Source: Halodesulfurarchaeum sp. HSR-GB (lineage in GTDB: Archaea > Halobacteriota > Halobacteria > Halobacteriales > Halobacteriaceae). From it: DNA of 64,000 bases. The notes under the pieces are model-generated. The model was given only the letters and a program-made list of their open reading frames with translations. It was not told the DNA's origin and ran no database searches. Position numbers and translations under genes: made by a program. The stretch covers positions 1,727,421 through 1,791,420 of the forward strand of contig NZ_JAVKGN010000001.1 of the NCBI RefSeq assembly GCF_031432215.1, written 5' to 3'. Shown here piece after piece: positions 10,999 to 48,905 of this stretch (its first letter is position 1; every line of letters starts with the position of its first letter).

Positions 10999-11658
10999 AT
11001 GCCTATCAGAGACGACGGTTCGGCGACCGATCCGGCGATCGTGGACCAGTTCGACGGCGGATTCGGCTGGCTCCCACATCCCGAGGAGGCGATGCAACGG
11101 GCCAGTCACGCCGTCGATTTCGGTGACGGCGTCTGGATCGTCGATCCCCTCGACGCACCTGGTATCGACGAGCGAATCGAGGAACTCGGCGAGGTTCGGG
11201 GTGTCATCGTCCTCCTCGACCGGCACGAGCGGGACGCCGCGGCGTTCGCGAATCGGTTCGACGTCCCCGTCTTTCGACCGCCCTACGTGGACCGGGAGTT
11301 CGACGCCCCCGTCGAGTGGCTCGGGTCACATCTCCCCGACTCGGATGTGCAGGTGCTCCAGACAGTCGACCTCCCGTTCTGGAAAGAGGGGGCGCTCTAC
11401 GACGGAGAGACACTTGTTCTCGCTGACGCCCTGGGGGCGGCCGGCTACTTCGCCGTTGGACCGGAACGACTCGGCGTGCACCCTATGCTCCGGCTCTCCC
11501 CGCCTACCAAGTTAGGCGGACTCACGCCAGAGCGGATCTTCGTCGGCCACGGCGAAGGCGTCGGGTATCGTGCTGCAGAAGCACTGGACGTGGCTCTCAC
11601 TGGCGCTCGGTGGCGGTTGCCCCAGGCCTGGCTGGCCGGGCTTCGATCAATCTTCTAG
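10999..11658 (+). CDS. Haloarchaeal hypothetical, possibly degenerate metallo-beta-lactamase-like
   Basis: This 219-residue soluble protein has DFGDGVWIVDPLDAPGIDERI, then VIVLLDRHERDAAAFA and late IFVGHGEGV, an order that recalls metallo-beta-lactamase folds. However, the usual HxHxDH is replaced by LDRHERDA, so metal binding is doubtful. It converges with aglJ with a 12-base tail overlap. I do not assign a function. Confidence 0.75.
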   Translation: MPIRDDGSATDPAIVDQFDGGFGWLPHPEEAMQRASHAVDFGDGVWIVDPLDAPGIDERIEELGEVRGVIVLLDRHERDAAAFANRFDVPVFRPPYVDREFDAPVEWLGSHLPDSDVQVLQTVDLPFWKEGALYDGETLVLADALGAAGYFAVGPERLGVHPMLRLSPPTKLGGLTPERIFVGHGEGVGYRAAEALDVALTGARWRLPQAWLAGLRSIF

Positions 11659-12582
11659 CTCGGTGAGGCGGTCGGCGATGTCGTCCAGCCGTCGCAGTCG
11701 CTCCCGATGCAGACTCGCGAGCATGTCCGCGAGAAAGCCAAAGAGGATCAACTGTCCGCCGAGCAGAATGGCGAGCGTCGCGAGTACGGCGATAATCTCG
11801 TGTGAAACGTTCTGCGTGAAGTACTCCACACCGACGTAGCCGCCGAAGAGCAATCCCGCGCCGAAGATGAGCCCACCGACGCTCCCGAAGTAAAAGAGTG
11901 GATTCGTCGTCTTCGCCAGGCTGTAGAGGGTCAAAAGGATTCGGCCGCCGTCCGCAATCGGGTTCAGGTTCGGGTCGGAACCCGCGGGTCGGGCGCGGTA
12001 CGTGATCGGAACGACCGACACGTCGAGTCCACGTTTGACACACTCCACTGCCATCTCGGTCTCGATGCCAAAGCCAGTCGCCGAGAGATGCATCCGCTCG
12101 AAGGAGTCCCGGGTGAACGCCCGGTAGCCACTGAGAATGTCGCCGTGGTCCTCGCCGTGGACGCCTCTGAACACCCGATTGAAGAGTCGATTGCCTACCT
12201 TGTTGAGCCGGGTCATCGCCCCCGATTCCATGTCGGCAAACCGGTTGCCGACGACGTGGTCCGCCTCGCCCGCCCGGAGGGGTTCGAGCAGGCGGTCGGC
12301 CTGACTCGGGACGTAGGTGCCATCGCCGTCGAGCATGAGGACGAACTCGGCTTCGACGTGTTCGATCGCTTCCCTGACCGCCTGGCCCTTGCCGCTGCCG
12401 GACTGGGTTATCACCCGAGCCCCGGCGTTCTCCGCGATCTCGACGGTGTCATCCGTCGAGTGACCGTCGACGACCAGCACGTTCTCCAGCCCAGCCTCGT
12501 GAAGCCCGGCGATGACGTCGCCGATCGTCTCGGCCTCATCGAGAGTCGGAATCAACACACAGACCTCGCCGTCCTCACCCAT
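11647..12582 (-). CDS. aglJ: Dolichyl-phosphate hexosyltransferase AglJ (GT2)
   Basis: This 311-residue protein has an N-terminal GT2 domain (VCVLIPTLDEAETIGDVI, VVDGHSTDDT, LMLDGDGTY as the metal/nucleotide site, and GYRAF) and two or three hydrophobic segments after about residue 225. AglJ charges dolichol phosphate with the first sugar of the N-glycan on the cytosolic face of the membrane. The ATG at 12582 is preferred: a GAGGGTGG ribosome site precedes it. The downstream-sense neighbour (12626-13813) is a sugar nucleotidyltransferase on the same strand, which fits a shared supply line for glycan building. Orthology to Haloferax AglJ is likely but not proven. Confidence 0.85.
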   Translation of the reverse strand: MGEDGEVCVLIPTLDEAETIGDVIAGLHEAGLENVLVVDGHSTDDTVEIAENAGARVITQSGSGKGQAVREAIEHVEAEFVLMLDGDGTYVPSQADRLLEPLRAGEADHVVGNRFADMESGAMTRLNKVGNRLFNRVFRGVHGEDHGDILSGYRAFTRDSFERMHLSATGFGIETEMAVECVKRGLDVSVVPITYRARPAGSDPNLNPIADGGRILLTLYSLAKTTNPLFYFGSVGGLIFGAGLLFGGYVGVEYFTQNVSHEIIAVLATLAILLGGQLILFGFLADMLASLHRERLRRLDDIADRLTELED

Positions 12583-12625
12583 TACCACCCTCTCGCGAGG
12601 CCATCGCCAAAAGCGTATCCTTCGC

Positions 12626-13813
12626 TCAGTCTCGCCGGACGACCGCGCCCGGGTTGGTAGTCGCCCCGGCGTCGAGGGTCACACCGACGTTGAGACTCGT
12701 GTTGATGCCCGTCTTCGCCCCCGGGCCACAAACACAGCCGAACTTCCGGCGACCCGTATCCACCGATTCGCCTTTGACCGTCGCCCGGACCGTCTGGTCG
12801 TCGTGTCGCAGGTTCGCGACGACGGTCCCCGCCCCGAAATTGACGTCCGGCCCGATCACGCTGTCTCCGACATAGGAGAGGTGTGAGATACTCGCTCCGG
12901 CCATCACCACGCTGTTTTTGACTTCGACGGCGTGACCGATCTGGGCGTTCCGATCGACCAGAGTGGTCCCTCGAATGTAGGCGTTCGGCCCGACTGTCGC
13001 TCCCTCACGGATCATCGCCGGCCCCTCGATGACCACTCCGTGACGGACTGTCGCGCCGGGTTCGACTACCACACGCCCCTGGAGGTCAGCCCCCGGGTGA
13101 ACGTTCCCCGCGACGGCCCGGGACCGCTCCCCGATCAACCACTCGTTCGCGTCGAGAAGTTCCCAGGGCCGACCCACGTCGAGCCACCGGTCCATCTCGA
13201 CGGGTGCCACCGTGGTCGATTCACAGGCCCGATCTAGCACGTCGGTGAGTTCCCGCTCGCCGCGCTCGCTTTCGGCCACGTCGAGCCAATCGACGGCCTC
13301 GCCCGGGAACACGTAGGCCCCGGTGTTCACCAGATCCGAGGGCGGGTCCGCCGGCTTCTCGATGACGCCGGTCACGCGACTCTCGTCTTCGGAGAGTTCG
13401 AGCACGCCGTACTGACTCGGGTTCGGAACGCGCATCGCGCCGACGGCGGGCCCAGCCTCGAAGACCGCGCGAAGCGATTGTGGGTCGTAGAGTCCATCGC
13501 CGTTGAGCACGGCAAACGGCTCATCATCGAGTTCCTGGCTCGCTACTTGCAAGGCGTCGGCGGTTCCGTCCTGGGTGGACTGTTCGACGTACTCGATGGG
13601 CAGGCCGTCCCAGAAATCGCCGAAGTGATCACGGATAGCTGCCCCTTCGTAGCCGATCACGAGAATGATCCGGTCCGCACCCGCAGACCGGGCTGCCTCG
13701 ATGGTGTGCTCCAGGAGCGGCCGATCGGCGACGGGCAGCATCGGTTTCGGGCGATCCGCCGTGAGCGGGCGCATTCGAGTGCCCTCGCCCGCGGCGAGAA
13801 TGACGGTGTCCAT
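12626..13813 (-). CDS. GlmU-like sugar-1-phosphate nucleotidylyltransferase/acetyltransferase
   Basis: This 395-residue protein has an N-terminal nucleotidyltransferase (LAAGEGTRMRPLTADRPKPM, then VLNGDGLYD, GVIEKP and WLDVGRPWELL) and a C-terminal left-handed beta-helix of hexapeptide repeats (from about residue 240). This is the archaeal bifunctional GlmU-type layout that makes UDP-GlcNAc or a related sugar nucleotide from the 1-phosphate. A second, diverged copy lies at 19221, next to glmS, so the two may serve different sugars. It lies 43 bases upstream of aglJ on the same strand and is probably co-transcribed with it. Confidence 0.9.
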   Translation of the reverse strand: MDTVILAAGEGTRMRPLTADRPKPMLPVADRPLLEHTIEAARSAGADRIILVIGYEGAAIRDHFGDFWDGLPIEYVEQSTQDGTADALQVASQELDDEPFAVLNGDGLYDPQSLRAVFEAGPAVGAMRVPNPSQYGVLELSEDESRVTGVIEKPADPPSDLVNTGAYVFPGEAVDWLDVAESERGERELTDVLDRACESTTVAPVEMDRWLDVGRPWELLDANEWLIGERSRAVAGNVHPGADLQGRVVVEPGATVRHGVVIEGPAMIREGATVGPNAYIRGTTLVDRNAQIGHAVEVKNSVVMAGASISHLSYVGDSVIGPDVNFGAGTVVANLRHDDQTVRATVKGESVDTGRRKFGCVCGPGAKTGINTSLNVGVTLDAGATTNPGAVVRRD

Positions 13814-13885: not shown

Positions 13886-14275
13886 CTACGCGTGTCTGTG
13901 GTTCTCAATGGACAGTCCGTCGATTGACTCGAAGTGGTCGTCACCAGCAACAAGGGTCGCCCCACGGTTGCGAGCTACCCCTGCGATCATGACGTCGCCG
14001 ATGGGAATTCGATCCCCCGCTGATTGCAATTCCGCCTGGATACGGGCCCCCTCGATTGCGTCCAGCGTGGAAAACTCGAGGAAGTCCACCCATCGAAGCG
14101 ACTCCTGAAGTTCGGACAGCTCTCGCTTGGAATCCCAGACCACGCCAAACGCCAGCTCGAACATCGAGACAGTCGATGCGACGAGTGGGACGTGTTCGTT
14201 TGCGGCGAAAAAATCTCTGGCTGACGCCCGCCCACGTTCGTAATCGACCAAGTAGCTCGTTTCGAGCAGTTTCAT
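13886..14275 (-). CDS. vapC: VapC-type PIN-domain toxin
   Basis: This 129-residue PIN protein has the acidic residues expected of the fold: Glu/Asp in KLLETSYLVDYERG, FELAFGV, DVMIAGVARNRGATLVAGDDHF. PIN toxins cut RNA, often tRNA or rRNA, using Mg2+. Its first bases overlap the end of the antitoxin gene by 4 (ATGA), a normal vapBC arrangement. The N-terminal first Asp is replaced by Glu (LLETSY), as in some PIN proteins. Type II TA assignment is well supported by pairing. Confidence 0.87.
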   Translation of the reverse strand: MKLLETSYLVDYERGRASARDFFAANEHVPLVASTVSMFELAFGVVWDSKRELSELQESLRWVDFLEFSTLDAIEGARIQAELQSAGDRIPIGDVMIAGVARNRGATLVAGDDHFESIDGLSIENHRHA

Positions 14276-14605: not shown

Positions 14606-15775
14606 ATGACCATTCTGCTCACCGGCGGCGACGGCTACCTCGGGTGGCCGACCGCCCTGCGGATCGCCAGTCGCACCGACGACCGAGTCGTTCTCGTCGA
14701 CAATTTCGCCCGCCGCGAGTGGGTCGAGAACGTCGGTTCGCGCAGCGCGACACCCGTCGCCCCGATCTCCGAGCGACTGGACGCCGCCGAGGAAGTCCTG
14801 GGAATCACGAACCTCTCCTTCGTCGAGGGTGACCTGGCGGACAAGGAGTTCACGGACGAACTGCTCGGAATCCACGAACCCGAGGTCATCGTCCACGCCG
14901 CGGCCCAGCCCTCCGCGCCCTACTCCCAGATCAACGGCGAGCGGGCGAACTACACCCAGCACAACAACATGCAGGCCACGCGGAACCTGCTCTGGGGGCT
15001 GGAGGAACAGGACCTCACCGATACTCACTTCATCGAGACCACGACGACCGGGGTCTACGGCGCACCCGAGTTCCCGATCCCAGAGGGTGGCGCGACGATG
15101 GAAAACCAGGGCGAAGAAGACGAAGTGCCCTTCCCCGCGATGGCCGGTAGCTGGTATCACCTCACAAAGAGCCACGACGCCGCGAACATGCGGCTGGCCC
15201 ACCAGCAGTTCGACATCCCGATCTCGGACGTTCGGACCTCGATCATCTACGGGGCGGGAACCGACGAGACCCAGGCCGACGAACGGCTGGCCACCCGGTT
15301 TGACTTCGATTACTACTTCGGCGTGGTCGCCCATCGCTTCGCGGCGCAGGCCGTCGCGGGCTACCCGATGACCGTCTACGGCAAGGGCGAGCAGCGAAAG
15401 CCCTTCGGCAGCCTCGAAGACGCGGTCGAGGGCCTGGCACGACTGGCGCTCATGGACCCCGAGGAGCGCGAGTCGGGACACACCGTCTACAACCAGGTGA
15501 CCCGGCCGATCAGCATCGTCGAGGTGGCAGAGACCATCGCCGACGTGGCCGGGGAGTTCGGCTACGACGTCGCCGTCAAGCACTTCGAGAACCCACGTGA
15601 CGAGGACGAGACCCACGAGATGGAGATCGAGAACGACCGTTACCTCGATCTGATCGACGAACAGCGCGTGACCTTCGAGGAGGGCATGCGCGAGACCATC
15701 GGGACCATCAGCGAGTACGAGGAGATCATCACGGCCCACGAGGACCGGTTCCTCCCCGGCGTCCTCGAAGACTGA
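14606..15775 (+). CDS. agl3: UDP-sulfoquinovose synthase-like (Agl3/SQD1 family)
   Basis: This 389-residue SDR-family enzyme has GGDGYLGWPTALRIA at the NAD site, THFIETTTTGVYGAPEF, and GSWYHLTKSHDAANMRLA with the YxxxK-like active site. These are the marks of the SQD1/Agl3 group, which makes UDP-sulfoquinovose from UDP-glucose and sulfite. Sulfolobus Agl3 uses it for N-glycans. It heads an operon of three short-chain dehydrogenase genes spaced one base apart or overlapping by 4. A TATA-like CTTATG lies about 36 bases before the ATG. The family assignment is strong; the product in this organism is inferred. Confidence 0.87.
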   Translation: MTILLTGGDGYLGWPTALRIASRTDDRVVLVDNFARREWVENVGSRSATPVAPISERLDAAEEVLGITNLSFVEGDLADKEFTDELLGIHEPEVIVHAAAQPSAPYSQINGERANYTQHNNMQATRNLLWGLEEQDLTDTHFIETTTTGVYGAPEFPIPEGGATMENQGEEDEVPFPAMAGSWYHLTKSHDAANMRLAHQQFDIPISDVRTSIIYGAGTDETQADERLATRFDFDYYFGVVAHRFAAQAVAGYPMTVYGKGEQRKPFGSLEDAVEGLARLALMDPEERESGHTVYNQVTRPISIVEVAETIADVAGEFGYDVAVKHFENPRDEDETHEMEIENDRYLDLIDEQRVTFEEGMRETIGTISEYEEIITAHEDRFLPGVLED

Positions 15776-15776
15776 G

Positions 15777-16718
15777 ATGGAGGTCCTGGTCACCGGCGGT
15801 CTGGGGTACATCGGTAGCGCACTGGTCCCACACCTGCTGGACCAGGAGTCAGTGACTGGCGTCAGGATTCTCGACGATCAATCGACCGGCAGCCCGCGGA
15901 ACCTCTTGGGTTCGGGGCTGAGCAATGGCCAGCCCCTCGACGTGCGAGCCGGCGACGTCCGGGAGTATGGCACCGTCGAGAGCGCGACCCGAGGCGTCGA
16001 TGCAGTCATCCACCTCGCGGCAATCACCGGCGCGGAGAGCACTCACGACCGCCGCGAAGAGACCTTCGCGGTGAACTACGAGGGCACCGAGAACGTCCTC
16101 CAGGCCGCCGAAAAACACGCCGTCGAGACCGTGGTCTTTGCCTCCTCGTGTAATCTTTACGGCCGGGCGGCGGAGACGGAGCTGTCAGAGGACGCCGAGC
16201 CGGACCCGCTGAACCCCTACGCCGAGTCCAAATACGAGTCCGAGCAACTCCTTCGGGAGACAGCGGCAGAGAGTGACCTCTCGACGACCGCGCTGCGGAT
16301 GAGCACCAACTTCGGGTACGCACCCGGAATCCGGTTCAATCTCGTAGTGAACCACTTCGTGTTCCAGGCGCTGACGGGCCGGCCACTGACCGTCTACGGC
16401 GACGGCACCAACTGGCGGCCGTTCATCCACGTTCGAGACGCTGCACGGGCCTTCGCTCACGCGGCGCTCAATCCCGAGCAGTACGACCAGCCCGTCTACA
16501 ACGTGGGCGCGAACGATCAGAACTACCAGATCAAGGAGATCGCGGCGGTGGTCCGTTCGGAGTTGGATCGTGATCTGGAGATCACCTATCTGGAAGATCG
16601 CAAACCGGGGCCGTCATACCACGTGAACTTCGATCGGCTCGCGGCGGGGACGGATTACGAGCCGGAAGAAACACTTCGGTCGGGTATTCGAGATCTGGCA
16701 GCCCAATTCGAATCATGA
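15777..16718 (+). CDS. NAD-dependent sugar epimerase/dehydratase
   Basis: This 313-residue extended SDR has TGGLGYIGSALVPHLL at the NAD site, FASSCNLYGRA and YAESKYESEQ (YxxxK active site), then GDGTNWRPFIHVRD near the C-terminus. Enzymes of this type epimerise, dehydrate or reduce nucleotide sugars. It starts one base after the agl3-like stop and overlaps the next epimerase by 4 bases, so the three act together. The exact sugar is not identifiable. Confidence 0.88.
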   Translation: MEVLVTGGLGYIGSALVPHLLDQESVTGVRILDDQSTGSPRNLLGSGLSNGQPLDVRAGDVREYGTVESATRGVDAVIHLAAITGAESTHDRREETFAVNYEGTENVLQAAEKHAVETVVFASSCNLYGRAAETELSEDAEPDPLNPYAESKYESEQLLRETAAESDLSTTALRMSTNFGYAPGIRFNLVVNHFVFQALTGRPLTVYGDGTNWRPFIHVRDAARAFAHAALNPEQYDQPVYNVGANDQNYQIKEIAAVVRSELDRDLEITYLEDRKPGPSYHVNFDRLAAGTDYEPEETLRSGIRDLAAQFES

Positions 16719-17710
16719 GCACCACTGAAACTTCACCAACGATCGCCATCACCGGCGCAGCGGGATTCATCGGCAGTCGTGTCGTGAAAGACCTGCAGGA
16801 AGCACACCCTGACTGGGAACTCATCGCGTTGGACAACTTCTACCTGGGTGAGGTGCGACAGATCGGAGAGCTCGTCGTCGAAGAGGTCGACATCCGGGAT
16901 CGAGATGCCCTGGAGGCGACCCTCTCCGGTGCCGATGTCGTCTTGCACCTGGCCGCGATCAGCGGCGTGGAGGACGCCACGGCGCACCCGGATTTGACCT
17001 ACGAGGTCAACGTCCAGGGGACGAACAACGTCGCCTGGTTCTGTCGAAAGACCGGTGCGGGGATGGTCTTCCCGTTGAGCATGGCGACCACACTGGGGAA
17101 TCCCGACGAGTTCCCCATCACGACAGATCACGAACGGGACCCGATGAACTGGTACGGCCGGAGCAAGGTCCTGGGCGAGCAGGCCGTCGAGACCTACGCC
17201 GATGGGGCGTTTCCGGCCCACCTGTTCATGAAGTCGAACCTTTATGGGGAGCACGAGATCGGCGACCAGGTGGTCTCGAAGGGGACGGTGATCAACTTCT
17301 TCGTCGATCGCGTGTTCACGGACGACCCGCTCACGGTCTACGAGCCGGGAACCCAGGCCCGCAACTACGTTCACGTCACGGACGTGGCCCGTGCCTACGT
17401 CAAGAGCGCCGAGAAACTCCTGGAGCAACTCGAGGCCGGCGAGACCGGAGCCAGCGCCTACGAGATCGCGAGCGACGAGGACCCCAGCGTGATGTCCGTC
17501 GCGAAGACCGTCCAGGAGATCGCTGCCGAGAAGGGGATCGAGACCGAGGTCACACTGGTCGAGAACCCACGCGAGAGCGAGTCCATGGTGAGCGAGTTCG
17601 AAATCGATACGTCGAAAGCAAAGCGAGAGCTTGGTTGGGAGCCCGAGTTGACCATCGAAGCGAGCGTCCGGCGGTTGTTGGAGAAGCGGACCGCACAGCT
17701 GGTCAATTGA
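16715..17710 (+). CDS. NAD-dependent sugar epimerase/dehydratase
   Basis: This 331-residue extended SDR has TGAAGFIGSRVVKDLQ, HLAAISGVEDA, MATTLGNPDEFPI, NWYGRSKVLGEQ (YxxxK) and GTQARNYVHVTD. It differs from its neighbour in the sequence around the catalytic Ser/Thr. It is third in the agl3-like operon and overlaps the second gene by 4 bases (ATGA). It probably acts on the same UDP-sugar route, perhaps as a 4-epimerase or reductase. Confidence 0.87.
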   Translation: MSTTETSPTIAITGAAGFIGSRVVKDLQEAHPDWELIALDNFYLGEVRQIGELVVEEVDIRDRDALEATLSGADVVLHLAAISGVEDATAHPDLTYEVNVQGTNNVAWFCRKTGAGMVFPLSMATTLGNPDEFPITTDHERDPMNWYGRSKVLGEQAVETYADGAFPAHLFMKSNLYGEHEIGDQVVSKGTVINFFVDRVFTDDPLTVYEPGTQARNYVHVTDVARAYVKSAEKLLEQLEAGETGASAYEIASDEDPSVMSVAKTVQEIAAEKGIETEVTLVENPRESESMVSEFEIDTSKAKRELGWEPELTIEASVRRLLEKRTAQLVN

Positions 17711-17764
17711 ATTCGGGTCGGTTGGAGGTTCTGCAACCCGACCAGCGGAATTTCGTATCGAGAA

Positions 17765-18019
17765 TCACGAAGCGTCTCCGCTTTGGTCCATTAATCGTCC
17801 CAGGCGGCCTTTTTGCTGGGTCGCGTGTTCGCTTCGCCGTGAATCGACTGCTTCAGAGACCGCTTCGGCGGTGTCTTCGGCAAGCAACCCGTGAAAATCC
17901 TGCAGTTTGACACCGGCTATCAGCCGGTTCACGACGTCACTGAAGCTCTCGTTCTCCCGTTTTTTGGCCTTCAAGCGCTTGTAGGCGTCTTCGGTGAGGG
18001 AAACCGTCTTCCTCGACAC
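17765..18019 (-). CDS. Orphan VapB-type antitoxin (DUF217-like)
   Basis: This 84-residue protein (SRKTVSLTEDAYKRLKAKKRENESFSDVVNRLI) is clearly of the VapB/DUF217 group. The GTG at 18019 is chosen because the family begins at this point; the upstream in-frame ATG at 18079 adds uncharacteristic residues. No PIN-domain gene lies downstream: the 54 bases to the epimerase stop are too short. It may be a solitary regulator or a leftover of a lost vapBC pair. Confidence 0.72.
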   Translation of the reverse strand: MSRKTVSLTEDAYKRLKAKKRENESFSDVVNRLIAGVKLQDFHGLLAEDTAEAVSEAVDSRRSEHATQQKGRLGRLMDQSGDAS

Positions 18020-18084
18020 ATGCCAGATTAGTATCTGTAAATAGTTAGTAATTGGGTCCAGACAAAATCCGAAACCCAAACCGA

Positions 18085-18924
18085 TCAGCCCTCCAGGGAT
18101 TCATACTCCCAGGTCAGTTCGAACAGCCGGTTCATCCCGGCCACGAAGGATGCGTTCTCGGTGACTGCCGCCTGTCGAAGCGCCAGCGGGATGTCCTCCT
18201 CCTCGACCAGGAACAGAGCCTTCCCGGACTCGTACTCCATACTCGGATCGGCCAGCGTGCCGCGGACGGGGAGTTTCGACTCGCTGATTCGATAGTCGAC
18301 ACCCGCGATAGCATCGAGTGTGTCCATTCGCTCAGCCTGGACGGCCTGGTTATCGGGTTCGAGATACTCTTCGTGAACGAAGAGCACCCGCACGTCAACC
18401 CCACGATCCGCGGCGGCAGACAGGGCCTCCTTGACGGCCGGGAGATACTCGAAACTCTTCGTGAAGACTCGAATCCGCTCCTCGGCCGCGGCATAGAGCT
18501 GGCGGGTCTCCCGTTCGGAGACCTCACCCACGTCGACCACCCAGAAGAGTTCCTCCGTTGGCGTGATGTCCTGGCTGGCCGCCTCGAAGCGACTCTGGAA
18601 GGTCTCGAGGAACGCCTCGCGCATCGACTGGATCGACTGACGCTCGGATTCGAAGGTCTGGCGACGGTTCTCGATGGCCCGATCGAGGATCTCCGCGGGG
18701 GGCTTTGGCTGGTACTCCTTCGGCCGGCCCGGGATGACCTTGAGGAACCCACGGTCGCTCAGTTCGGAGAGGACGTCGTAGATGCGAGCCTTGGGAATAC
18801 CCGTAGCCTCCGAGAGTGTGGGAGCGGTCGTCCGGCCGATGGTGAGCAACTCCGTGAGGGCCCGGACCTCGTACTCGCCGAGATCGAGGCGTTCGAGCAG
18901 CCACTCGGGATCCGGTTCGTCCAT
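18085..18924 (-). CDS. TrmB-family transcriptional regulator
   Basis: This 279-residue protein has an N-terminal winged helix (LLERLDLGEYEVRALTELLTIG, TAPTLSEATGIPKARIYDVLSEL, GRPKEYQPKPP) typical of TrmB, then a coiled-coil-like stretch and a C-terminal PLD-like sugar-sensing domain. TrmB regulators sense sugars and control sugar or glycan genes. It is divergent from a small gene (19004) and upstream of glmU-like/glmS. A 10-bp inverted repeat lies just before its start. The family call is firm; the target set is inferred. Confidence 0.9.
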   Translation of the reverse strand: MDEPDPEWLLERLDLGEYEVRALTELLTIGRTTAPTLSEATGIPKARIYDVLSELSDRGFLKVIPGRPKEYQPKPPAEILDRAIENRRQTFESERQSIQSMREAFLETFQSRFEAASQDITPTEELFWVVDVGEVSERETRQLYAAAEERIRVFTKSFEYLPAVKEALSAAADRGVDVRVLFVHEEYLEPDNQAVQAERMDTLDAIAGVDYRISESKLPVRGTLADPSMEYESGKALFLVEEEDIPLALRQAAVTENASFVAGMNRLFELTWEYESLEG

Positions 18925-18948
18925 TCGTCCCGTGGATCACGGGGCGCG

Positions 18949-18976
18949 GGCAAAAAGGGGTCGGTACCTTTTTGCC
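18949..18976. promoter_or_regulatory. Perfect inverted repeat (candidate TrmB operator)
   Basis: GGCAAAAAGG at 18949-18958 and CCTTTTTGCC at 18967-18976 form a perfect 10-bp inverted repeat with an 8-base spacer. It lies 25 to 52 bases upstream of the TrmB ATG and 28 to 55 bases upstream of the small gene on the other strand, at the shared divergent promoter. The size and place fit a dimeric-repressor site. No second copy was noticed. Confidence 0.55.
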
Positions 18977-19003
18977 GCGGGCTCACGATGAGTGACTAAG
19001 AAA

Positions 19004-19150
19004 ATGAGTAACCAGCTGTCGGAGCCGGAACCCGACGGGGAGGACCCCGATCGGGCCCATCTGGCGGACGTCGAGAGCGGAGCCGGGTGCACGGAGATCT
19101 GGGAAACGCTCAGCGAACAGCGGGCCGAAGCTGAAGCGACTGAGGACTGA
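19004..19150 (+). CDS. Small acidic protein, 48 residues
   Basis: An ATG at 19004 opens a 49-codon frame ending TGA at 19148-19150: MSNQLSEPEPDGEDPDRAHL... then AGCTEIWETLSEQRAEAEA. Codons are GC-rich at third positions as in neighbouring genes and composition is strongly acidic, as in haloarchaeal proteins. A central Gly-Cys-Thr is present. It reads away from TrmB and shares its operator region, so it may be TrmB-controlled. The product is of unknown function; small proteins like this are often overlooked. Confidence 0.6.
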   Translation: MSNQLSEPEPDGEDPDRAHLADVESGAGCTEIWETLSEQRAEAEATED

Positions 19151-19220
19151 TGGGTACTTGTGTTTCGCGGGGGTTTGAATACGTAGCCCGACCGATTGCC
19201 AATATGCGAGTCCACCACCC

Positions 19221-20372
19221 ATGAAGGCAGTCATCCTGGCCGCTGGCGAGGGTCAGCGGCTCTCCCCCCTGACGAACGTCCGCCCGAAACCGATGCTTCC
19301 AGTCGCGAACGAACCGATTCTGGCACGGGTCATCGAGGCCGTCTCCGCGGCCGGCATCGAGGAGATCCTCCTCGTGGTCGGCTACAAGTCCGACCGCATC
19401 CAGCAGGCGATCGGCGACGGCGACGACTGGGGTGTCGATGTCACCTACGTAACGCAGGCAAAACAGCTCGGTACTGGAGACGCCGTCCTGCAGGCCGAGC
19501 CCCACGTTGCGGAGGACTTCCTGGTGCTGAACGGTGATCGGGTCACCGACAGCCAGGTCCTCACCGACGTCATCGAACGTCGCGAGGCGACCGGCGAGAC
19601 GGTCATGGCTGTCACACGGGCCGAAGAGCGCTCCCTCTATGGCGTGGTCGAGTTGGACGGCGATCGAGTCATCGACATCATCGAGAAACCCGAGCCACAC
19701 GAGATCGACTCGGATCTGATCAACGCCGGGGTGTACGCCTTCGGGCCGGAGATCTTCGAGGCCATTCGGGCGACCTCGACACACGGGGAACTCGAACTGA
19801 CCGACGTGCTCTCGTTCCACCTGGATCGCCAACCGATTCAGGCCGTTCCCGACCGGCAGCCCTGGCTCGACGTCAGCCGCCCCTGGGACCTGCTCTCGGT
19901 CAATGCGGCGTTGCTCGACGAGGAGGATACGGGCGATCGGGCGTCGATCGATCCGACGGCCGCCGTCTCCGCTGGCGTGGCACTCGGATCAAACGTCCAG
20001 GTCTACCCGAACGCCACCGTCTTGAACGGGACGGCGATCGGCGACAACGTCACGATCGGGCCGAACGCCACGGTCTCGAACTCGATTCTGATGGCCGACG
20101 TGACAGTCGAGGCTGGCGCAGTCGTCCGGGACGCCATCGTCGCGGAGAACGTCACGATCGGGCCGAACGCGACCATCGTGGGCGGGAAAGCCGACGTGAT
20201 CCTGCAGGAGACCGTGCATCGCGACGTGACCCTCGGCGGCGTGATCGGAGACAACGCAATCATGGGGGGTGCGGTGACGGTCCATCCCGGGAGTTTCGTC
20301 GGCAACGGAGCAACAGTGGCACACGGCGCACAGATCGACGGCCGCATCGAACCGAACGGAACGGTCCAATAA
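19221..20372 (+). CDS. glmU: GlmU-like bifunctional N-acetylglucosamine-1-P uridylyl/acetyltransferase
   Basis: This 383-residue protein has the nucleotidyltransferase motif LAAGEGQRLSPLTNVRPKP, VLNGDRVTD, DIIEKPEPHE and WLDVSRPWDLL, followed by a left-handed beta-helix of hexapeptide repeats (from about residue 235). It makes UDP-GlcNAc from glucosamine-1-phosphate or a close analogue. Its stop shares one base with the glmS start (TAATG), so it forms an operon with GlmS, a direct metabolic pairing. A diverged second copy is at 12626. The start ATG at 19221 is the only family-like choice. Confidence 0.92.
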   Translation: MKAVILAAGEGQRLSPLTNVRPKPMLPVANEPILARVIEAVSAAGIEEILLVVGYKSDRIQQAIGDGDDWGVDVTYVTQAKQLGTGDAVLQAEPHVAEDFLVLNGDRVTDSQVLTDVIERREATGETVMAVTRAEERSLYGVVELDGDRVIDIIEKPEPHEIDSDLINAGVYAFGPEIFEAIRATSTHGELELTDVLSFHLDRQPIQAVPDRQPWLDVSRPWDLLSVNAALLDEEDTGDRASIDPTAAVSAGVALGSNVQVYPNATVLNGTAIGDNVTIGPNATVSNSILMADVTVEAGAVVRDAIVAENVTIGPNATIVGGKADVILQETVHRDVTLGGVIGDNAIMGGAVTVHPGSFVGNGATVAHGAQIDGRIEPNGTVQ

Positions 20373-22171
20373 TGTGTGGAATTACCGGCTACGTCGGCGA
20401 TCGCGACGCGCTCCCGATCGTCTCCTCGACACTGGCGAACCTGGAGTACCGGGGGTACGATTCCGCGGGTGTCGCCCTGGGGAACTCCGAACTGGAGATC
20501 TACAAGGCCGAGGGCAAGATCGGGGAATTGACGCTTCCGGACAGTTCCACGGCGCGAAGCGGGATCGGTCACACACGGTGGTCGACTCACGGGCCGCCAA
20601 CGGACGAGAACGCCCACCCCCACACGGACTGTACGGGGGAAATCGCAGTCGTCCACAACGGCATCATCGAGAACCACGCCGAGTTGCGGGCCGAACTGGG
20701 AGCGAACCACACCTTCACGAGCGACACGGACACGGAAGTCGTCCCGCACCTGATCGAGGAACACTGGGATGGCGGGGACTTGCTCGACGCCGTGTCAGCG
20801 GTCGTCGATCGGCTTGCGGGGAGTTTCGCCATCGCGGTGCTCGTTGAGGGCCGGAACGAGATCGTGGCCGCACGCCAGGACAGTCCGCTCGTGATCGGTC
20901 ACGGCGACGGCGAAAACTTCCTGGCGAGTGACGTGCCGGCCTTCGTCGAGCACTCCCGGGACGTGACCTTCCTCGAAGACGGGGACGTCGCCCGGATCGC
21001 GCCGGATGGGGTGGAGATCTACCACGACGGCGAGCGAATCGAACGGGAGCGGACAGCAATCGAGTGGGAGGCCGAAGCCGCGGAGAAAGGCGGCTACGAG
21101 CACTTCATGCTCAAGGAGATCCACGAGCAGCCCCGGGCGCTGCGCCAGGCGCTAACCGGACGGGTGGACGCGCTTTCCGGAGACGTGGATCTGGACCTGG
21201 GACTGCCCGAAGAGTATCTGCAATCCCTGGAGGAGATCCAGATCGTCGCGGCGGGGACCTCCTATCACGCCGGGTTGTACGCCAAACAGTTGCTGGAAGA
21301 CCTGGCGGACGTTCGCGTGACCACGCACGTCGCAAGCGAGTACGAGGTGGGCGGGGGGCGGGACCCCTGGCAGACGCTGGTCATGGCGATCACCCAGAGT
21401 GGGGAAACCGCCGACACCCTGGGGGCCCTCCGAAGGGCCAAAGCGAGCGGTGCGCGCACGCTGGCCATGACGAACACGGTCGGGAGCACGGTCACTCGCG
21501 AGGCCGACGAGACCGTTTACATCCACGCCGGGCCGGAGATCGGCGTGGCAGCGACGAAGACCTTCGTCTCGCAAGTGGCGACGGCGACGATGCTGGCAGT
21601 CGCGCTTGGGCGGGTTCGAGGAACGCTGAGTCGGGACGAGGCCGGGGCGGTGCTCGACTCGCTCCGTGGGTTGCCCGGCGCGATCCAGCAGGTGCTCGAT
21701 CGGGAGGCCGAGATCGAGGCGATCGCCCAGGAGTACGCCGACCGCGAGGCCTTCTTCTTCCTCGGGCGTCGGCTAGGGTACCCAGTCGCCCTTGAGGGAG
21801 CGCTGAAGCTGAAGGAGATCTCCTACGATCACGCGGAGGGATTCGCGGCCGGTGAGCTGAAACACGGGCCGCTGGCGCTCGTGACCGAGAACGTGCTCGT
21901 GCTGTCGGTGTTGACTGACGGCTCCAATCCGGAAGCGACGCTGCACAACGTGGCCGAAGTGGACACCCGCGGGGCGGCGACAGTTGGATTCGGTGAACCA
22001 AACGGCGAGCAGAATGTACTAGACCAGTCTTTCCCAGTGCCCGAAGCCGGATTACTAGAGCCGGTTGTCGCGAACGTCTACATGCAGCTGTTCGCGTATC
22101 ACGTCGCCCGTTCGAAAGGGCGAGCGATCGACAAGCCGCGAAATCTGGCGAAGAGCGTTACCGTGCAGTGA
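20372..22171 (+). CDS. glmS: Glutamine-fructose-6-phosphate aminotransferase GlmS
   Basis: This 599-residue protein begins MCGITGYVGDRDALP, with the catalytic Cys2 of the class II glutaminase domain. The glutaminase domain (to about residue 235; LEYRGYDSAGVAL, GHTRWSTHG) is followed by two SIS isomerase domains (AAGTSYHAG, ITQSGETADT) and the C-terminal AKSVTVQ. It converts fructose-6-phosphate and glutamine to glucosamine-6-phosphate, the first step to UDP-GlcNAc. It is translationally coupled to the glmU-like gene upstream. Length and all key segments are normal. Confidence 0.96.
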   Translation: MCGITGYVGDRDALPIVSSTLANLEYRGYDSAGVALGNSELEIYKAEGKIGELTLPDSSTARSGIGHTRWSTHGPPTDENAHPHTDCTGEIAVVHNGIIENHAELRAELGANHTFTSDTDTEVVPHLIEEHWDGGDLLDAVSAVVDRLAGSFAIAVLVEGRNEIVAARQDSPLVIGHGDGENFLASDVPAFVEHSRDVTFLEDGDVARIAPDGVEIYHDGERIERERTAIEWEAEAAEKGGYEHFMLKEIHEQPRALRQALTGRVDALSGDVDLDLGLPEEYLQSLEEIQIVAAGTSYHAGLYAKQLLEDLADVRVTTHVASEYEVGGGRDPWQTLVMAITQSGETADTLGALRRAKASGARTLAMTNTVGSTVTREADETVYIHAGPEIGVAATKTFVSQVATATMLAVALGRVRGTLSRDEAGAVLDSLRGLPGAIQQVLDREAEIEAIAQEYADREAFFFLGRRLGYPVALEGALKLKEISYDHAEGFAAGELKHGPLALVTENVLVLSVLTDGSNPEATLHNVAEVDTRGAATVGFGEPNGEQNVLDQSFPVPEAGLLEPVVANVYMQLFAYHVARSKGRAIDKPRNLAKSVTVQ

Positions 22172-30465: not shown

Positions 30466-30740
30466 ATGACTGACGAGCATACGGCACACGTCTAGCGTAT
30501 CGCGGACGGGGTCGAAGACATCGAGCGGACCGTCCGTGAGCTACGCTCATTCCAGTCGTTGACGCTGGAGGAGTACCAGTCCCCGGACCATCGACAGACG
30601 CGAGCTGCGGTGGAGCGACACTTCGAGACGCTGACTGCGGCGACGGTCGACGTCGCGAAGACGATCTGCCGACTCGAATCTGTAGCGGTTCCGATCCACC
30701 GAAAGGACGTGATTCGTGCGGTCGAATCGTGTGGGATCAT
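30466..30740 (+). pseudogene. Broken HEPN-domain toxin gene
   Basis: ATG at 30466 opens MTDEHTAHV followed by TAG at 30493-30495. After that nonsense codon the frame continues in the HEPN pattern ([28 protein letters not shown]... [23 protein letters not shown]) up to AVESCGII at about 30740, where a TnpB element's left end begins. The C-terminal RxxxxH catalytic motif of HEPN proteins is thus missing. Two independent lesions make it non-functional. Confidence 0.82.
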
Positions 30741-30869
30741 AGCAGTAACAGCGCGGAAACCCACCCGTTCACGGGTGGAAGGAAGCGCGTAAGCTCTGTG
30801 CAACAACCCACCGACAATGGCCGGGCCAACTCCCTAACGTCTTTCAACTATCAAGCACACTTATGGCAT

Positions 30870-32124
<1,255 letters not shown>

Positions 32125-45773: not shown

Positions 45774-48700
45774 ATGAGCGACGACTCGACAGCGAGTGGC
45801 TCCACACTTGATATGGAGGCACTCACGGACACGTTCCGGCGCTGGTACCACGTGCCGGCGCTGGTACTGGCCGTCGTGACGATGTTCTTCATCCGGATCC
45901 AATCCTGGCAAAATTTCGTCCAGGACGGCAACGTGTACCTCTCAGGCAACGACGCCTGGTACCATCTTCGAATGGTCGAATATAGTGTGGAAAACGGCCT
46001 TTCGACGATGCCCTACGAGATCTGGACGGGCTTCGCGACGGGGAAGTACGTTGGTCAGTTCGGCACCCTCTTCGACCAACTGATCGCAACAGGAGCACTA
46101 ATCCTGGGGCTTGGTGATCCCTCCAGTCAGCAAATCGCCACAGCAGTCCTCTTCGCTCCGGCAGTTTTCGGCGCACTCGTCGCGATTCCAACCTTCCTGA
46201 TTGCCCGCCGCTTTGGTGGAAATCTCGTGGGGGTCGTCGCAGCGTTTATTCTTGCCTTGCTCCCCGGTCTCTTCCTCCAGCGCGGGACAGTGGGCGCGGC
46301 AGACCACAACGTCGCCGAACCGCTGTTCATGTCTCTAGCGGTACTTGGACTCCTCATTGCCATCGCCGTCGGTGATCGGGAACTGCCGGTCTGGGAGCAG
46401 CTCCTTGACCGGGATATCGCCGGCCTCCGAACCGTCTTGGGCTGGAGTCTCCTCGCGGGTACGGCCACCGCCGCATACATGTGGGTATGGCCGCCCGGCG
46501 TGATTCTCGTCGGGATCTTTGGAATTTTCTTGCTCGTCTCGCTCTCGAGTGATGTCGTCAGTGGCGTGAGTCCCGACCATACTGCCATCCCGGCGACCAT
46601 CGCCATGGCGACCACGACACTTCTCATGCTAATTCCACTCGATGTTCTGGGCTTCTCCGCATCCGGATTCTCCCTGCTCCAGGTCATTGCCCCGCTGGTG
46701 GTCGCGTTCGGTGCCGTCTTCCTCTCGTGGCTAGGCCGCGAGTGGGAGCGTCGAGATATCGAGCCGAACTACTACCCAGGAGCGGTCGGCGGCCTCGTGG
46801 TCGTCGGGTTCGTTCTCGCCTCGGTGATCGTTCCCGGGCTGGTCGACATGATCGTGAGCAACTTGATCAGGTACGTGGGCCTTTCAGCTGGCGCAACCAC
46901 CCGCACCATCAGCGAGGCCCAGCCCTTCCTCCAGTCCCGCGCCGACCAACTCGGCCTGGGGGCCTGGCAGGCCTTCTTCTTCGAGTACGGCGCGGCCTTC
47001 TTCCTCGCCCTGCTGGGCGGGCTCTGGATGATCCTCCGGCCACACCTCCTGAGTTCTGACTCCCGCCGCATCAGCATGGCCGCGGGCGTGCTCCTGCTGG
47101 GTGGACTCTTCGTCGGCTTCCCGGCCATTCCCACGGCCCTCGGGGGCATCCTCGGCCTCAGCGGGGACCTCTTCGGCCTGCTGGTGCTCAGCCTGGCCGT
47201 CGCCGCCGCACTGATCGCCGGGGACTACCCCACCGAGCAGATCCTGCTCGTGGTCTGGGCGGCGTTCATGCTCGCCGCGGCGCTCACCCAGGTCCGGTTC
47301 AACTACTACCTCGTCGTCCCGGTCGCCATCCTCGCAGCCTACGCAGTCGGGCGCGTGATCGACGACTTCGGCGTGACCCTGGCGACCCTCTCCCCGCGCT
47401 CCATCGACTGGAGTCACGTCATGCTCGTCGTGACCATCGTGCTCTTGCTCTTCGCACCCATGGTCGCCCCGATCAGCTTCGCGAACCAGGACGACCGACA
47501 GGTCCAGATGAGCACCGCCGTCCAGACCGGCGCGAACGCCGGGCCCGGGGCCGTCACCGAGTGGGACAGCACCCTGGGCTGGATGCAGAACAACACGCCC
47601 GAGGTGGGCAACTACGGGGGTGCGGGCAACGCCGACCAACTGGATTACGACGGCACCTACGCCATTCCCGAAAACGATGACTACGACTACCCCGAGGGAT
47701 CCTACGGCGTGATGAGCTGGTGGGACTACGGCCACTGGATCACGGTGCTGGGCGAGCGCATCCCGGTCGCGAACCCGTTCCAGCAGCACGCCACCCAGGC
47801 CGCGAACTACCTGCTCGCCGGTGACGAGGAAACCGCCAACGAGCGACTCGGGGCCACCGACGAGGACGACGCCGAAACCCAGTACGTGGCCGTCGACTAC
47901 AAGATGGTCGACACCCAGGGCAAGTTCAGCGCGCCCACGGTCTTCTACAATGCGAACGACAGCTTGAGTTACGATAACATGACCGACGGGCAGATCCTGG
48001 GCCCGAACGCCGGGACCTACCTCAACTCGGGCTACCGCCCGCCCGTGACCACGTTGAAGACCCAGCGCTACTACGAGAGTCAGATGGTCCGGCTCTATCA
48101 CCACCACGGGAGCGCGGTGGATGCCAACACCGTCATCCAGTACGAGAACCGCGAGTACGAGCAGTACGAGAACCCGGTTCCGACCTACGAGACCTCCCGG
48201 ACCTTCCGGTCCAGTGAAGCCGCCCAGGAGTTCGCCGAAAACGACAGCAACGCGATCGTCGGCGGCGTGGCCGACTTCCCGCGTGAGGACCTCGAAGCGC
48301 TGGAACACTACCGCCTGGTGCGAGTCTCCGAGGATTCCACCGCGCCCCGGCAGAAACTCGCGAACCTCGAGTTCCGCGAGGGCGAACAGCCCACCTGGGT
48401 CAAGCTCTTCGAGCGTGTGCCCGGCGCGACCATCGAGGGAGAAGGGCCGGCAGACTCGACTGTGACCGCCACCGTCGAGCTAGAGTCGAACGCCCCGTAC
48501 AACGACAGCACGTTCACCTACACCCAGCACGCCGAGACAGACGCGAACGGCGACTTCGAGATGACCCTGCCCTACGCCTCGACCGACTACGATGAATGGG
48601 GCCCCGAAGACGGGTACACCAACACGAGCGTGCGGGCCACCGGCCCCTACGAGTTCAGCACGCCCACGAGTGTGGACCGGGCGAACGAGACGATGACGAC

Positions 48701-48905
48701 CCACAGCGGAACCGTCGACGTGCCTGAAGGAGTCGTGATCGGAGCGAGCGAGGAGCCCATCACGGTGACCCTCGACGAACAGGTGATCGACACGGGCCAG
48801 GAGGACAACCAGACCGACACGAACACGACTGACACGACGAACGAGACAGTCCAGTCCGTCGGCACCACCAGCCTGCCCGAAGTCACCGCTCAGCCCACCG
48901 AGTAA
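45774..48905 (+). CDS. aglB: Oligosaccharyltransferase AglB (STT3 family)
   Basis: This 1043-residue protein has about 13 membrane helices in the first 600 residues, the catalytic Asp loop GNDAWYHLRMVEY, then the soluble C-terminal domain with SWWDYGHWITV (WWDYG motif) and DYKMVDTQGKF. The last 200 residues include an extracellular beta-rich part and an acidic Thr-rich tail. AglB transfers the lipid-linked glycan to Asn in N-x-S/T of secreted proteins such as the sequon-rich protein at 5223. The stop shares a base with the DUF368 gene. Confidence 0.96.
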   Translation: MSDDSTASGSTLDMEALTDTFRRWYHVPALVLAVVTMFFIRIQSWQNFVQDGNVYLSGNDAWYHLRMVEYSVENGLSTMPYEIWTGFATGKYVGQFGTLFDQLIATGALILGLGDPSSQQIATAVLFAPAVFGALVAIPTFLIARRFGGNLVGVVAAFILALLPGLFLQRGTVGAADHNVAEPLFMSLAVLGLLIAIAVGDRELPVWEQLLDRDIAGLRTVLGWSLLAGTATAAYMWVWPPGVILVGIFGIFLLVSLSSDVVSGVSPDHTAIPATIAMATTTLLMLIPLDVLGFSASGFSLLQVIAPLVVAFGAVFLSWLGREWERRDIEPNYYPGAVGGLVVVGFVLASVIVPGLVDMIVSNLIRYVGLSAGATTRTISEAQPFLQSRADQLGLGAWQAFFFEYGAAFFLALLGGLWMILRPHLLSSDSRRISMAAGVLLLGGLFVGFPAIPTALGGILGLSGDLFGLLVLSLAVAAALIAGDYPTEQILLVVWAAFMLAAALTQVRFNYYLVVPVAILAAYAVGRVIDDFGVTLATLSPRSIDWSHVMLVVTIVLLLFAPMVAPISFANQDDRQVQMSTAVQTGANAGPGAVTEWDSTLGWMQNNTPEVGNYGGAGNADQLDYDGTYAIPENDDYDYPEGSYGVMSWWDYGHWITVLGERIPVANPFQQHATQAANYLLAGDEETANERLGATDEDDAETQYVAVDYKMVDTQGKFSAPTVFYNANDSLSYDNMTDGQILGPNAGTYLNSGYRPPVTTLKTQRYYESQMVRLYHHHGSAVDANTVIQYENREYEQYENPVPTYETSRTFRSSEAAQEFAENDSNAIVGGVADFPREDLEALEHYRLVRVSEDSTAPRQKLANLEFREGEQPTWVKLFERVPGATIEGEGPADSTVTATVELESNAPYNDSTFTYTQHAETDANGDFEMTLPYASTDYDEWGPEDGYTNTSVRATGPYEFSTPTSVDRANETMTTHSGTVDVPEGVVIGASEEPITVTLDEQVIDTGQEDNQTDTNTTDTTNETVQSVGTTSLPEVTAQPTE

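Follow-up and report, generated by a model that had tools for sequence, protein, structure and literature searches.

Three genes encoding short-chain dehydrogenases/reductases (SDR1, SDR2 and SDR3), located side by side in a 64,000-nucleotide stretch (the window) of the 2.25-Mb genome of Halodesulfurarchaeum sp. HSR-GB, were found to constitute an almost obligate set that is tied to glucosamine (hexosamine) synthesis, two properties that are new here. Together with a TrmB-family regulator, two GlmU-type nucleotidylyltransferases (NTase1 and NTase2) and the glutamine--fructose-6-phosphate transaminase GlmS, they could form an archaeal set producing nucleotide-activated sulfoquinovosamine (QuiNS) for the S-layer or other surface glycans, a reading that we regard as evenly poised between right and wrong. 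The first gene (SDR1, 14606..15775, + strand) encodes a 389-amino acid extended SDR that resembles the uridine diphosphate (UDP)-sulfoquinovose synthases SQD1 and Agl3 and belongs to a haloarchaeal type, called here P-type, with the motifs QPSAPYS, TTTTGVYG and SWYHLTK. SDR2 (15777..16718, + strand, 313 amino acids) is a GalE/RmlB-like SDR with an invariant SSCN-x-YG, a catalytic NPYxxxK and the motif GDGxNWRPFIH, and SDR3 (16715..17710, + strand, 331 amino acids) is a GalE-like SDR with the consensus motifs SMA-VLGDP and NWYGRxK. The three open reading frames are complete, a 1-bp gap separates SDR1 from SDR2 and SDR2 overlaps SDR3 by 4 bp. With SQD1 as the top match of SDR1, the proposal of an earlier note, made from the sequence of this stretch, that an SQD1/Agl3-like enzyme leads three coupled SDR genes is confirmed.

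An SDR1 gene was detected in 112 of the 292 sampled Halobacteria genomes, distributed over 46 of 77 genera. The occurrence of the partners was compared between 64 SDR1-positive genomes (all those of the 112 with at most 10 contigs) and 64 SDR1-negative genomes (the first 64 by handle number among the 180 without a match). An SDR2 orthologue was present in 61 of the former and in none of the latter, and an SDR3 orthologue in 63 compared to only two, these two being 44-46% identical. Among 80 named haloarchaeal loci, SDR2 was found in 75 and SDR3 in 72 (76 and 73 with another filter), always on the strand of SDR1; the distance between SDR1 and SDR2 was at most 150 bp in 70 of 76 loci and that between SDR2 and SDR3 at most 300 bp in 63 of 73. 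The SDR1-SDR2-SDR3 arrangement is thus not due to chance, and the two partners are not the "extra" epimerases that they had been taken for in the earlier note. Since genomes with and without SDR1 coexist within several genera (e.g. g8, g9, g10, g22-g25 and g28), the triad was probably gained or lost as a unit more than once. Two unusual SDR1 genes were encountered during this survey. At G095:C55:56094-57253, a second copy is broken by a stop codon and a change of frame, the intact copy being elsewhere in that genome. At L151:10328-12589 (- strand, G239:C1), the SDR1 orthologue is a single frame of 754 amino acids in which an in-frame insert of about 345 amino acids lies inside the catalytic YxxxK; this insert begins with Cys, ends with CGN before a Ser and matches LAGLIDADG, which makes it very likely an intein.

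The gene found near the triad in most genomes is glmS: it lies no more than 20 kb from SDR1 in 37 of the 64 SDR1-positive genomes (24 of 35 genera), against the 1.5 that genome size and copy number would predict; the P values calculated for such linkages do not allow for shared ancestry. By contrast, aglJ, which encodes the glycosyltransferase initiating S-layer N-glycosylation, lies within this distance in only 7 of the 64 genomes (4 of 35 genera), so that the proximity of AglJ in the window is not the rule; a general bond of the set to N-glycan initiation was therefore dropped as an explanation. The genomic setting of the triad is thus that of glycan loci, with glmS as its most frequent companion. 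Gene order is even tighter beyond the main clade of haloarchaea: in two loci from distant lineages, different families of the same phylum, L160 (Halobacteria, f5) and L149 (f35), the genes SDR1-SDR2-SDR3-NTase1-NTase2-GlmS follow each other on one strand without interruption, with a TrmB gene upstream on the opposite strand. The order in L159 resembles that of these two loci, an NTase1-type gene directly following SDR3 in all three, and L143, L148 and L142 carry parts of the run. In the DNA examined, no glmS accompanies the triad and TrmB of L146, L147 and L150, and L144 has a single SDR partner and no glmS. The TrmB gene is present in 27 of the 80 named loci and is divergent from SDR1 in most of the non-haloarchaeal ones. 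In the window, the same genes are distributed around the operon: NTase1, an archaeal GlmU-type bifunctional nucleotidylyltransferase/acetyltransferase (12626..13813, - strand; TIGR03992, 525.6 bits for a cut-off of 292.1), the TrmB-family regulator (18085..18924, - strand; PF01978), NTase2, a second archaeal GlmU-type nucleotidylyltransferase whose score of 294.6 bits is barely above the cut-off of 292.1 (19221..20372, + strand), and GlmS (20372..22171, + strand; 755 bits for a cut-off of 418).

Several side observations concern these loci. The GlmS encoded at L142:13117-16419 (+ strand, G300), in the cluster of an SQD1-like gene of a Ser type, has 1101 amino acids and is split by an intein (Pfam matches to Intein_splicing and LAGLIDADG), and a thioredoxin gene (L142:8631-8948, - strand) stands between that SQD1-like gene and its sole SDR partner. 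Near the six-gene run of L160, two sulfotransferase-like genes and an adenylylsulfate kinase gene were found (12796-13656, 17094-17711 and 18633-19700), which suggests that the glycan of this region is also O-sulfated.

The likeness of SDR1 to SQD1 is evident in both sequence and fold. Its best relatives of solved structure are three distinct SQD1 sequences (1qrr, 1i24 and 1i2b, E values of 8e-71 to 4e-70), the next match reaching only 1.6e-5, and the stretches TQHNN, TDET and RxDxDxxFG are common to both proteins. Likewise, SQD1 is the top structural match of the predicted SDR1 model (E value of 1.5e-30, the next being 2e-17). The active-site loops 101-115, 149-168 and 170-183 of this model have predicted local distance difference test values below 50, and the geometry of the pocket was consequently not used. 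SDR1 scored 332.8 bits with the NCBIfam model NF041015, the curated cut-off of which is 575. This cut-off is narrow, given that two control genomes, Synechococcus elongatus and Sulfolobus acidocaldarius, gave a match and a single one of them passes it, and the shortfall was dropped as proof that SDR1 is not a UDP-sulfoquinovose synthase. SDR2 and SDR3 match GalE/RmlB-like extended SDRs, and neither reached an NCBIfam equivalog cut-off.

The conservation of the residues required for activity was assessed by comparison with Agl3, in which replacement of His95, Arg101, Met145, Tyr182 or Lys186 by Ala abolished activity whereas E147A retained 12% of it, Arg101 being, from the printed primers, the Arg of EQRSAP (PMC4388408; this and the other papers cited are drawn on in their accessible parts). 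The alignment comprises 112 SDR1 rows, that is the window and 111 of 113 loci (L002 lacks SDR1 and the partial L003 was left out), counting the gene of the window three times (window, L001 and L084) and some genomes under two handles; SDR2 of L083 and SDR3 of L024, L044 and L068 were dropped for internal stops. The catalytic Thr147 and the Tyr184 and Lys188 of YxxxK are kept in all 112 rows, as is the His equivalent to that of Agl3, and the His that follows YxxxK is also retained. In the same 112 rows, the Arg of QRxAPYS is invariably replaced by Pro, and the Met site beside the catalytic Thr by Thr. In UDP-sulfoquinovose synthases, this Met belongs to the fingerprint [ST]MG (PMC8987622). The Arg is present in all 13 rows of the SQD1/SqdB type, namely SQD1, the 11 bacterial rows (H5-H10, H12-H14, H17 and H21 of 18 plasmid matches) and the archaeal L114. 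A phylum-wide search added 22 loci, of which 20 are P-type, the others having Arg (L114) or Ser (L115); L122, one of the P-types, is an exception in that it retains the Met. The site of Agl3 Glu147 is occupied in SDR1 by Val (108 rows), Ile (three) or Leu (one). Since Val is also found in 10 of the 11 bacterial SqdB-type rows (Lys in the remaining one), this site is not diagnostic, and its loss was abandoned as an argument against sulfonation. One of the bacterial rows with Val, L138, is presumably the sulfolipid gene sqdB of Sinorhizobium meliloti, judging from its gene neighbourhood.

In agreement with these replacements, a tree of 35 rows, which excludes Agl3 and the outgroup root of which is untrustworthy, placed the six Arg-type rows on one side of a branch with a support of 94/94 (98/100 with L115, which joins them by long branches). 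SDR1 groups with the P-types outside the SQD1/SqdB clade, from which it is separated by a branch of about 1.5 changes per column. SDR1 is thus not a typical UDP-sulfoquinovose synthase to judge from its sequence, and plain sulfoquinovose is an unlikely product. In our own alignment, the lost Arg coincides with the residue that opens a sugar-contacting stretch, a position occupied by Lys in GalE and by Gly in the UDP-N-acetylglucosamine (UDP-GlcNAc) epimerase WbpP (PMC12820599). As Pro is likewise present at this position in an archaeal GalE (3icp), the loss of this Arg does not by itself name the sugar of SDR1. It should be noted that a lack of SDR partners was considered as a trait of the Arg-type enzymes and dropped, an oxidoreductase gene being found two genes on in several alphaproteobacterial Arg-type loci.

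A sulfonated amino sugar has been described in the genus Haloarcula. In H. hispanica, DolP-QuiNS was reported in S-layer glycosylation, and a value printed only as 898.0000 was given for the S-layer N-trisaccharide (Pei et al.). Calculated masses are 673.27 for Hex2, 898.30 for Hex2+QuiNS, 899.29 for Hex2+sulfoquinovose and 914.30 for Hex2+O-sulfated hexosamine, and, among the sulfonated options, the printed value fits Hex2+QuiNS. We read the abbreviation QuiNS as sulfoquinovosamine, in keeping with the calculated mass. Reportedly, sulfoquinovosamine was said to be a constituent of the H. hispanica glycan by Lu et al. in 2015. SDR1 was found in 31 of the 32 genomes of the genus with the named Haloarcula loci, the sole miss being a genome that is 58% complete, and in all 28 near-complete ones (completeness of 90% or more, contamination of 5% or less), with one copy each. 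No second SQD1-type gene was detected in the genomes of this genus at an E value of 1e-30.

SQD1 and Agl3 oxidize C4 of the sugar, remove water at C5-C6, add sulfite and reduce C4 (PMC4388408, PMC8987622). On the basis of this chemistry, we infer that SDR1, alone or with its partners, would sulfonate UDP-glucosamine (UDP-GlcN) or UDP-GlcNAc. GlmS and a mutase encoded elsewhere would provide glucosamine phosphate, which the GlmU-type enzymes would convert to UDP-GlcN or UDP-GlcNAc. With a bound nicotinamide adenine dinucleotide (NAD), SDR1 would then carry out the C4 oxidation, the loss of water at C5-C6, the addition of sulfite to C6 and the reduction of C4, and SDR2 and SDR3 would perform either the steps that SDR1 cannot complete alone or a final epimerization. 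This distribution of tasks, like the UDP carrier, is part of the proposal. The SQD1-like sequence and fold, the kept catalytic residues, the triad, the glmS linkage, the six-gene runs, the sugar-contacting position of the lost Arg and the QuiNS of Haloarcula speak for the synthesis of activated sulfoquinovosamine and lead us to hold it as probable as its opposite.

Several points weigh against this reading. The Arg and Met that were lost are residues whose replacement by Ala inactivates Agl3, and SDR1 may therefore be unable to handle sulfite. No gene resembling 3'-phosphoadenylylsulfate (PAPS) reductase was found in the 100 loci of the P-type search (1.33 Mb). A PAPS_reduct search of the genome of the window gave a single weak match, to an open reading frame of 367 amino acids, which is uninformative. 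Two of the 11 bacterial Arg-type loci, on alphaproteobacterial plasmids, have PAPS reductase genes nearby (L190:3679-4407 and L193:5524-6101), likely for a local supply of sulfite. Furthermore, QuiNS of the gluco configuration needs no epimerase, which leaves the two obligate partners unexplained unless the labour is split. The glmS gene may be a marker of glycan loci generally, a UDP-sugar dehydrogenase being also found near SDR1 in at least 17 of the 64 SDR1-positive genomes. At the threshold used, neither partner was found in G077, an SDR1-positive genome, and SDR2 is missing from two others (G122 and G231). Lastly, the link of SDR1 with H. hispanica comes from the count for its genus. A split of the labour can be envisaged, in which, in contrast to the one-enzyme SQD1/Agl3 type whose Arg and Met SDR1 has lost, the three SDRs would divide among them the oxidation, the dehydration, the addition of sulfite and the reduction, with a glucosamine nucleotide as substrate, to yield UDP-sulfoquinovosamine. 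It would constitute a second biological route to sugars with a carbon-sulfonate bond, older than the Haloarchaea within the phylum. This idea, which we advance tentatively and hold to be rather doubtful, is drawn from two likenesses of one position each: the S-M-A of SDR3 resembles the S/T-M-G of UDP-sulfoquinovose synthases (PMC8987622), and the invariant S-C-N of SDR2 has a Cys where the 5,6-dehydratase TunA (T-C-E) has one.

Two other explanations of the chemistry were considered. SDR1 could be devoid of sulfite chemistry and act as an NAD-linked C4 oxidoreductase or epimerase on a UDP-N-acetylhexosamine, with further epimerase or dehydratase steps by SDR2 and SDR3, the product being a non-sulfonated amino sugar nucleotide. 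The loss of all three Agl3 residues, Arg, Met and Glu, the GalE-like TTTTGVYG motif, the glmS/glmU operon, the three obligate SDRs and the fact that no sulfite-forming gene was found in the 100 loci of the P-type search are consistent with this possibility, which we nonetheless view as somewhat unlikely, the SQD1-type fold and shared stretches having been kept and SDR1 being the only SQD1-type gene in the QuiNS-making Haloarcula. Conversely, SDR1 could be a true UDP-sulfoquinovose synthase using UDP-glucose and sulfite, the product of which SDR2 and SDR3 would epimerize to further sulfo-hexoses for an N-glycan, or which would enter a sulfolipid as read by Bolhuis et al. 2006. SQD1 is the top match of SDR1 by sequence and by model, the family bears this name in print (PMC1544339; cluster IV of PMC4388408), and the Val shared with the bacterial rows does not exclude the activity. 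We nevertheless consider it improbable in view of the Arg-to-Pro and Met-to-Thr replacements, the position of SDR1 outside the Arg-type clade, the linkage with glmS and the naming of the sulfonated sugar of Haloarcula as QuiNS and not sulfoquinovose.

The destination of the sugar is a separate matter, and another destination is compatible with the sulfoquinovosamine chemistry. The set might serve an exopolysaccharide, an O-glycan or a glycolipid instead of N-glycans, the closeness of AglJ in the window being incidental, as the rarity of aglJ near SDR1 and the presence of copies on plasmids would allow. This appears quite improbable to us, since the QuiNS of H. hispanica was reported in S-layer glycosylation and the window has both AglJ (11647..12588, - strand; 442.3 bits for a curated cut-off of 325) and the oligosaccharyltransferase AglB (45774..48905, + strand; STT3, AglB core and AglB_L1) in the region of the SDR set. 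The N-glycosylation setting described in the earlier note is thus real in the window, where the AglB part of the region additionally holds a flippase and glycosyltransferases, but it is local. Its suggestion of a sulfonated sugar in the glycan is supported by the haloarchaeal S-layer example; the clade, the lost Arg and Met, the glmS linkage and the name QuiNS speak against plain sulfoquinovose as in Sulfolobus.

Both the operon and the family were known before, as an SqdB-GalE-GalE operon of Haloquadratum walsbyi was described by Bolhuis et al. 2006 and read as sulfolipid genes (PMC1544339), and halophilic sequences, including those of Halorhabdus utahensis and H. walsbyi, were assigned by Zolghadr et al. 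2015 to a remote group, "cluster IV", that has no more than 36 identical residues and for which a possible difference in mechanism was left open (PMC4388408). The family and the three-gene operon are the same as ours, H. walsbyi J07HQW1 (L053) having SDR1, SDR2 and SDR3 in a row, whereas the Arg and Met losses, the glmS link and the obligate triad are not mentioned in the accessible parts of these two papers. What is described here is a known family whose variant character is new and consistent. SDR1 shares with SQD1, SqdB and Agl3 the SDR subfamily, the fold, the catalytic Thr, YxxxK and many common stretches, but has Pro for their invariant Arg, Thr for Met/Leu/Ile and DVRT for DLxQG; it also stands on a separate side of the tree, is linked to glmS and has two obligate SDR partners. 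In S. acidocaldarius, Agl3, which has Arg101, Met145 and Glu147, likewise supplies a sulfonated sugar to S-layer N-glycans, but this is plain sulfoquinovose made from UDP-glucose (PMC4388408). Another comparable system is that of H. hispanica, where the surface glycan contains a sulfonated amino sugar and SDR1 is universal in the genus, although the gene for the QuiNS nucleotide is not named in the accessible part of Pei et al.

The surroundings of the operon in the window also contain ABC transporter and UDP-sugar dehydrogenase genes. A VapC-like PIN gene (13886-14275, - strand) and a VapB-like antitoxin gene (17765-18079, - strand) border it, as if a vapBC pair had been split by the SDR operon, and in L054 SDR2 and SDR3 are separated by a vapBC-like pair. 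An IS605-type OrfB/TnpB-like gene with a Cas12f1-like TNB domain (30729-32117, + strand) lies in the glycan region.

Taken together, these results indicate that the genes printed as UDP-sulfoquinovose synthase, found in more than a third of the sampled Halobacteria genomes, may encode a different enzyme. If the proposed synthesis of activated sulfoquinovosamine is correct, the set would supply candidates for the genes behind a sulfonated amino sugar that has been reported from the S-layer of an archaeon, the annotation of the family would be corrected, and SDR1 and its partners would represent a second enzyme design for the synthesis of carbon-sulfonate sugars.

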